DNA of 11,611 bases, taken from Alphaproteobacteria bacterium. GTDB lineage: Bacteria; Pseudomonadota; Alphaproteobacteria; Sphingomonadales; Sphingomonadaceae. The position numbers were made by a program, and so were the translations under genes. The notes below the pieces were generated by a model, which saw only the letters and a list, made by a program, of their open reading frames with translations, was not told the DNA's origin and ran no database searches. The DNA lies in contig JAENVZ010000103.1 of NCBI GenBank assembly GCA_016650315.1, positions 1 through 11,611 on the forward strand, written 5' to 3'. Positions 1-1,721 of the stretch are shown piece by piece. Within the stretch, counting starts at the first letter, position 1, and each line of letters starts with the position of its first letter.

Positions 1-149
1 TGTCCGTGCGGTCGATCAACCCCTGCTCTCTCCCCTTGAGGGGAGAGATACGAAGGCTTGGGAGCGAAGCGACCTAGCCGCAATTGAGACGGGCCCTCGG
101 CGCTTGCGACAATCCCCTCTCCCAACCCTCTCCCCTGAAGGGGAGAGGG
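1..149. repeat. Two-hairpin GC-rich palindromic repeat element inside valS (left end outside window)
   Basis: The first palindrome has arms 126-135 and 140-149, a perfect 10-bp stem of CCCTCTCCCC with a TGAA loop. The second has arms 27-35 and 40-48, a perfect 9-bp stem of TCTCTCCCC with a TTGA loop. A further direct copy of CCCTCTCCC lies at 115-123, next to the one at 126-134. About 77 bases separate the hairpins. The CCCTCTCCCC...GGGGAGAGGG form is typical of dispersed intergenic repeats in proteobacteria. Here it lies in the valS coding frame with no stop codon, which resembles Rickettsia palindromic elements in behaviour though not in sequence. The boundaries are approximate; the valS-side edge is probably near 150-155. 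Confidence 0.8.
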
Positions 150-1721
150 CTTTTCGGCTGCATCAGGCCAACCCAGCGTGCCGAAGGGCCAGAGGGCGGA
201 GGAGAACCATGTGTCGAGGACGTCAAGATCACGACTGAGAACAACTCTGTTTTTCACGCTTGTAAAGGTAAGCACATCACTAAAGTCAATTTGGCACTCG
301 TTGCCATAATAAGCGAGCGCCTGTTTCCTGACGTCATCCTCATTTACACCCACGAACGTTTGCTGATCTCGATGTCGGATTTCGACGACACTCATGTCGC
401 CCTGGTTTAAGGTAGCCTCGATACCTCCTACCGATTTGGATGGCCCGTACCACGCCGGTATCTGATGCCCCCACCACAATTGCCGCGAGACACACCAGGG
501 CTGGATATTCTCCATCCAGTTATAATAGGTCTTTTCCCAGGTCTTCGGCACGACCTCAATCTTGCCGGACTTCACCGCCTCGATCGCCGGTTTCGCCAGC
601 GTTTCGGCGTCCACATACCATTGGTCGGTCAGCCATGGCTCGATGACCACGCCCGAACGGTCGCCATAGGGGGTCTGGATTGTGCGGTCCTCGATCTGTT
701 CGAGCAGGCCCGCGTCCTCGATCATGTCGACGACGATCTTGCGCGCCTCGAACCGGTCGAGGCGCAAAAATTCCTGCGGTATCAGGCCATCGCTGACCTG
801 AACCACCTTCGCATCGGCATCCAGCATGTTGAGCATGTCGGCAGGCTTGAACCCCGCGCGCTTGCCCACTTCGAAATCGTTGAAGTCATGCCCCGGCGTG
901 ATCTTCACCGCGCCACTCCCAAGCTCGGGATCGGCATGTTCGTCCGCCACAATCGGCACCAGCCGCCCGGTAATGGGTAGGCGGACATTCTTCCCGATCA
1001 GCGCCTTGTACCGATCATCCGTCGGGTTCACCGCGACCGCCATGTCGGCCAGCATCGTCTCGGGCCGCGTGGTGGCAACCGAGATATGGCCCGATCCATC
1101 CTCCAACGGATAACGGAAATGCCAGAACTTGCCCTGCACTTCCTTGGTCTCGACCTCCAGATCGGAAATCGCGGTTTTCAGGCCGGGGTCCCAGTTGACC
1201 AGCCGCTTGTCGCGGTACAATAGGCCGCGATTATACAGCTCGACGAACACCTTGATGACGGCCTTTGAAAAGCCCTCATCCATGGTGAAGCGTTCATTGG
1301 CCCAGTCCATCGACGCGCCCAGCCGGCGGAGCTGGCGGGTGATCTCGCCGCCGCTTTCTTCCTTCCACGCCCAGACCTTGGCAATGAATTCCTCGCGGGT
1401 GAAATCGGTGCGCTTTTGCCCCTTGGTATTCATCTGCCGCTCGACCACCATTTGCGTCGCGATCCCCGCATGGTCGGTGCCAACGACCCACAGCGCATCC
1501 TTGCCGCGCAGCCGCTCGTAACGGATGACGATGTCCTGCAACGTATTGTCGAGCGCATGGCCGATGTGCAGCGATCCCGTCACATTGGGCGGCGGGTTGA
1601 CGATGGTGAAGGGCACAGCATCGGGCCGTTCGGGGCGGAATAATCCGTTCTCTTCCCAATGCGCGTACCAGCGCGCCTCTATGGCGGCGGGATCAAAGGT
1701 CTTTGGCAGTTCGTTACTCAT
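1..1721 (-). CDS. valS: Valyl-tRNA synthetase, N-terminal 573 residues (runs off left edge)
   Basis: This cytoplasmic class Ia synthetase charges tRNA-Val with valine. The frame is open from the ATG at 1721 to the window edge. Visible motifs are [13 protein letters not shown] (residues 43-55, the HIGH signature), [10 protein letters not shown] (81-90), the editing-domain motif TTRPETM (218-223 region), [10 protein letters not shown] (416-425) and [12 protein letters not shown] (500-511). The KMSKS half lies outside the window. Two things are odd. The stretch between WYG and DLDVLDTWF is about 71 residues, against about 30 in E. coli, and is AT-richer than its surroundings. From about residue 523 the frame reads through a palindromic repeat element ([12 protein letters not shown] and onward) in place of the expected short loop before the YPT...FFW segment. 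No clear Shine-Dalgarno precedes the ATG. The gene identity is certain; whether the protein resumes normally past the edge cannot be seen. Confidence 0.95.

Follow-up and report, generated by a model that had tools for sequence, protein, structure and literature searches.

In-frame palindromic repeats in a variable loop of valyl-tRNA synthetase in Sphingomonadaceae

The valS locus at the contig end

The stretch of DNA analyzed here at its full length of 11,611 bp (hereinafter, the window) is G000:C103:1-11611 from a genome of 2.06 Mb that is assembled in 324 contigs, and its position 1 is the contig end. The relevant features are the following (the last four without assigned strand):

156-1721, minus strand: N-terminal half of valS (valyl-tRNA synthetase, ValRS), residues 1-522, matching positions 2-471 of the TIGR00422 profile
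3-155, minus strand: in-frame insert codons of valS, 51 stop-free codons that reach the contig edge
24-151: dispersed Sphingomonadales repeat, hairpin-core-hairpin, approximately 127 bp, delimited by conservation across 48 copies
126-149: outer hairpin, valS side, with a perfect 11-bp stem (126-136/139-149), within the codons 149-114 for a 12-residue peptide
27-48: second hairpin, coded within YLSPQGER, with a perfect 10-bp stem (27-36/39-48)
1-23: contig tail beyond the element, resembling neither the repeat nor valS, either a continuation of the insert or the result of an assembly switch

In the profile search, the valS part of the window scores 649.8 bits, compared with a TIGR00422 cut-off of 612.1, and its residues 1-429 are 90% identical to those of the congener G001. 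The valS frame on the minus strand is open from 1757 to 3 and runs to the contig edge. The loop in family members that lack an insert consists of 10-15 residues followed by the YPN.. segment; the window departs from this arrangement, as the preliminary description of this DNA had claimed, and its statement that all 51 codons up to the window edge are open is also correct. The expectation that the frame resumes further to the left stood in part: C103 ends at position 1, but the C-terminal half of valS is located at the end of contig C14 (G000:C14:3102; profile positions 474-861, 343.8 bits), which starts with GATTTGCTTGCC, a 26-residue opening that is the segment expected after the ValRS loop. 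The two top profile matches accordingly complement each other (2-471 on C103, 474-861 on C14), with bases missing between the contig ends, and valS is read as two pieces. We infer that the valS gene of this genome is intact across the contig gap. A second intact valS, which had been considered as a possible counterargument, was not found: this candidate is rejected because the other five profile matches are weaker, partial and below the cut-off.

A dispersed palindromic repeat in the valS frame

The two hairpins on the valS strand, located as originally proposed, are perfect inverted repeats and are themselves inverted copies of each other (25-47 against 128-150, 91% complementary), so that these arms form terminal inverted repeats, a feature of the MITE type. 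The predicted RNA fold of the valS strand has an energy of -76.3 kcal/mol (z -3.21), and 2 of 200 shuffled sequences are as stable. Assignment to a known RNA family was considered and rejected, the nine matches obtained all being under the gathering score.

The exact 21-mer at positions 40-60 is present at 76 places of the genome collection. The records are titled as members of Sphingomonadales in 74 cases and as Proteobacteria and Alphaproteobacteria in one case each, and the hosts include Sphingopyxis, Novosphingobium, Sphingobium, Sphingomonas, Blastomonas, Erythrobacter and other Sphingomonadales. A second hairpin is found by the pattern used at 50 of the 76 places, with 117 bp being the commonest length of the element, and 48 places could be aligned to the window (26 are without a second hairpin by this pattern and 2 are too near an end). 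Agreement among the 48 aligned copies is high from 24-25 to 151-153, with block 115-151 being the best conserved part, and low outside, falling to the chance level at 1-23. Because these copies are conserved over approximately 24-151, the window carries the whole dispersed repeat unit, beyond chance. One copy, 82% identical over 26-151, is located on plasmid pSA1 of Novosphingobium resinovorum, whose record carries no gene annotation, and a partial copy lies at the ends of the convergent atzF and YncE genes of Novosphingobium sp. EMRT-2. Most copies are outside genes, judging from frames only: any frame is open for 60 codons on both sides at 6 of the 44 testable places, in agreement with the earlier characterization of the element as a genomic repeat normally found between genes. 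Each of the three valS-strand frames is open in 17-22 of the 48 copies (35-46%), so that an open frame alone is weak evidence.

The assembly of the window's own genome contains few copies: when a 4-base loop and as many as 2 mismatches are allowed, the hairpin occurs at 7 places, two of them in the window, compared to 2 in the reversed control, and with a 5-base loop it occurs at 3 places compared to none in the control. The core of the element has no other match in the same assembly at an E-value of 0.001.

The ValRS loop in relatives and across the family

A search with window residues 505-573 yielded 156 matches; among the 120 listed, those with names are valine--tRNA ligases, nearly all from Sphingomonadales, and the insert is absent from a few, such as P0054 and P0065. 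Alignment with the relatives identified a 22-residue peptide of the window that is identical in the ValRS proteins P0002 (Rhizorhapis sp. SPR117) and P0004 and differs at one residue in P0003; in these three proteins, the shared peptide is followed by a different spacer, SPEGER-like residues and LARHYPND. P0042 (Rhizorhapis suberifaciens) contains the same insert as G001, PLPFRGGVGVGP..SPEGEG. These matches suggest Rhizorhapis as the source of the window. In all four proteins an insert of this kind is located within an unbroken ValRS, and the placement of the insertion in the loop preceding the KMSKS half of the enzyme is supported. Cultured carriers include Sphingobium sp. SYK-6 (P0039) and Sphingobium lignivorans (P0032).

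P0002 aligns with the Thermus thermophilus ValRS (1gax) over residues 4-423, 491-519 and 563-959, and the two breaks correspond to the loops that we denote A and B. An AlphaFold2 model of P0002 built from a 30-row alignment (mean pLDDT 80.8, pTM 0.75) has 1gax as its best PDB match (E 5.4e-66), and the longest stretch with pLDDT below 50, 517-558, is the insert. The insert is accordingly predicted to be disordered, a prediction that pertains to this relative rather than to the window protein and for which low pLDDT is a mere sign.

The spacer that differs in the relatives bears on another reading of the contig end, namely that only the outer hairpin (approximately 112-155) belongs to valS, with positions 1-111 derived from another copy of the repeat and joined at a shared block of about 40 bp. 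The block in question includes the part that is best conserved among the dispersed copies, C103 ends approximately 151 bp past the border between valS and the element, a hairpin of this type forms the very end of another contig of the assembly, C239, and the tail 1-23 bears no resemblance to valS. The core peptide matches no other protein which, together with the different spacer between the hairpins in the relatives, counts against the reading of the full insert as a part of ValRS. For residues 534-573 (window 122-3), an exact-word search for sequences of similar length yielded 14 candidates, of which only the window itself matched at E 1, and the 20-mer 1-20 has no exact match in the genome contig collection, from which the genome of the window may be excluded. 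Conversely, a further 37 codons (113-3) are open, an argument that is weak given how often the frames of dispersed copies are open; LSPQGER near the end of the insert is comparable to LSPEGER or SPEGER in many ValRS inserts; and the same assembly offers no other match to the core at E 0.001. On balance, we regard an assembly switch as a serious alternative for 1-111, though one that is less likely than not; it would leave the outer hairpin unaffected since this hairpin is common to the relatives.

Besides the window, 156 species of the family were examined at loop B (154 by script and two, L135 and L149, by eye); the sample, drawn in part from the best-scoring among 212 genomes with a match, without G115, G151 and G175, leans to closer relatives. 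The loop has at least 20 residues in 42 of these species and 10-15 residues in the remaining 114, so that the insert is part of a family-wide hotspot and its uniqueness as a lone case of the Rickettsia kind is rejected. In all 156 loci a single stop-free frame spans the loop, and all 42 inserts are in phase. Sorted by eye, the inserts include the types PSPLEGRGLGEG..PPEGER, PFVPSEVEG..STALDTNG, RHSELVSES..LKHVQDD, PPRDGEVAARSADGG..PADGPPPRSGE, SPSSCDGEGD..SPTQVVGED, LPLAGGAGGG and PSPSGEGQGVG..TPPLKGRG; again by eye, the repeat classes at this site look unrelated to each other, and three of the 42 (L110, L126 and L130; 20-26 residues) are not repeat-like and were counted anyway. A perfect stem of at least 9 bp is present in 28 of 40 inserts, compared with 2 of 40 control pieces from the same genes (p 1.4e-8). 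Strong hairpins of this kind might suggest that the insert is never translated, being bypassed by the ribosome or removed from the RNA; neither bypassing nor splicing would require inserts to be open and in phase, as all of them are, and we consider such a mechanism extremely improbable.

The distribution of the inserts is patchy. Among the 20 insert-bearing genera with at least two species read, the genus of the window being excluded, 17 hold both states. On a tree built from short flanking parts of valS (303-393 nt), a minimum of 33 changes is needed to explain the presence of the insert, and 9 changes are needed for the 9 carriers of the STSLDTNG class. Outside the family, none of the 21 loci read has a loop B of 20 or more residues (21 of 31 outside-family genomes, namely G048, locus L027, and 20 others, 15 of which were read by script and 5 by eye). 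In G118 and G232, two genomes of one genus (loci L093 and L079), the insert consists of 25 and 49 residues, respectively, with the same ends; this difference is an in-frame trimming of one insert, between GEG-coding stretches.

Sources of the inserts, other loops and known systems

The relationship between genomic copy number and carrier status was examined for the PFVPSEVEG..STSLDTNG class. The nine carriers have 230, 132, 12, 44, 81, 70, 2, 129 and 159 genomic copies, and the 145 non-carriers have a median of 0; carriers have more copies (p 3e-7, or 4e-6 with the valS pair subtracted). Some copies are present in 49 of the 145 non-carriers, and 22 have at least 10 copies yet no such insert. 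With the reversed pattern as a control, the 219 genomes yielded a single match (G103). In a tree-aware test, the direction is retained (4.2 in the same sense, 0 in the opposite sense and 2.8 undecided) but not significant (median p 0.125). The two copies in G221 (L111) are the valS pair itself and, because the genome has no other copy, this valS allele may have been imported from another species rather than produced by local insertion.

Loop A (window approximately 225-475, preceding LDTWFSS) is also variable: of 155 loci, 32 have a long form exceeding 60 residues and 115 have a short form of up to 33 residues. It is long in the window and short in the congener G001, and the forms are scattered over the tree, with at least 28 changes. 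By eye, loop A of L034, L060, L076, L173 and L183 contains CGTC-REP-like peptides (RHSRAGGNP..LRGNDE and variants), and both loops of G194 (L076) harbor repeats.

The absence of the repeat from the rest of the G221 genome, along with the similarly scattered forms of loop A, could also point to one ancient insertion that was later overwritten through gene conversion with other genomic repeats or dispersed as valS alleles were exchanged. Such a history would require many losses, given the mixture of states within most insert-bearing genera and the lack of inserts in the loci read outside the family, and no relationship between the repeat classes at this position is apparent by eye; we therefore deem it unlikely.

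In the same genome as the window, truB (L013, G000:C239, 556-1539, plus strand) encodes an in-frame CGTC-REP-like peptide, SYRHPREGGDP..MDSRLRGNDE. A search with an insert-bearing query yielded 7589 TruB matches, and 88 of the best 120 contain the CGTC type in the same stretch as detected by a regular expression, a number that does not represent a frequency given the choice of the query; by eye, several of the remainder in the best 120 carry other repeat types. The loop of TruB, another tRNA protein, is probably a hotspot as well.

The recurrence of inserts at one spot in many genera, and the similar picture in another tRNA protein, TruB, raise the question of function: the hairpins in the valS mRNA or the disordered loop might be maintained for control of translation, partner binding or protection. 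Given that the insert is missing in 114 of the 156 species read, that the inserts differ greatly in sequence, length and repeat family and are subject to in-frame trimming, and that a tolerant loop combined with selection against frameshifts would give the same pattern, functional domestication appears very unlikely.

In-frame palindromes are reportedly best known from Rickettsia, as described by Ogata in 2002 and by Claverie and Ogata in 2003. The comparison with the Rickettsia palindromic elements made in the preliminary description is apt with respect to the way of working, as seen in P0002, P0003, P0004, P0042 and the 42 of 156 species, and does not extend to sequence membership: in both cases, dispersed palindromic repeats persist in frame in conserved genes and truB is a target, but the present repeats belong to another bacterial order, and several unlike families occupy the same loop in a single gene. 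E. lithoralis and S. alaskensis, which are mentioned below, are sphingomonads. In-frame REPs are already known, including those in tRNA synthetases and truB of these two: the 2013 survey reports in its main text REPs within ORFs of tRNA synthetases in X. oryzae, E. lithoralis and S. alaskensis and within truB of S. maltophilia, E. lithoralis and S. alaskensis, and lists truB also as a target of the Rickettsia elements (PMC3733652). The only shared site named there is in recB of two Xanthomonas, where REPs occupy about the same position, and that main text names neither the synthetase nor a shared site for it (PMC3733652). None of the titles listed by the literature searches concerns repeats at a single valS site in sphingomonads.

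The loop-A inserts (RHSRAGGNP..LRGND) resemble CGTC REPs, and that of G015 matches the CGTC pattern used in this analysis. The window element, in contrast, has no GTAG or CGTC tag, its ends being TGCTCTC.. and ..GAGGGCT, includes a core within its approximately 127 bp, and shares its site with several other families. The enterobacterial RU elements are similar in that they are small, mobile repeats of intergenic regions whose open frames are fused to proteins; they are different elements in other hosts, and the abstract describes no recurrent loop in an essential gene (PMC2759123).

Taken together, we consider it very probable that a palindromic repeat landed in the ValRS loop and is translated in frame, within a tolerant loop that is refilled across the family. 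Under this scenario, a repeat of approximately 127 bp of Sphingomonadaceae would enter the short ValRS loop between LDTWFSS..LGWP and the RHYPND strand, by transposition or template switching, and its length and frame would keep valS open, such that the insert would be translated as a disordered loop rich in proline and glycine. The loop would tolerate extra residues, the inserts being nearly neutral, and purifying selection would remove only out-of-frame or stop-bearing events. Because of this tolerance, and with selection limited to events that break the frame or bring in stops, unlike repeat families would arrive, be trimmed and be lost at the loop again and again across the family. A broader reading, which we offer tentatively and rate slightly short of an even chance, is that a few loops of essential translation proteins (A and B of ValRS, and that of TruB) are standing landing pads for unrelated palindromic repeats with continual, family-wide turnover, and that inserts might occasionally be retained for a benefit.

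The repeated in-frame filling of one loop of an essential enzyme by different mobile repeats can now be given in numbers, and many closely related empty sites serve as natural controls. Intragenic repeats may also explain the splitting of such genes in draft assemblies like that of the window. If translation is confirmed, the old claim made for Rickettsia, namely that repeats are a source of new protein segments, would become testable in free-living, culturable bacteria, and if the landing-pad reading is true, these loops would represent a natural, ongoing experiment in which new protein segments are made from mobile DNA.
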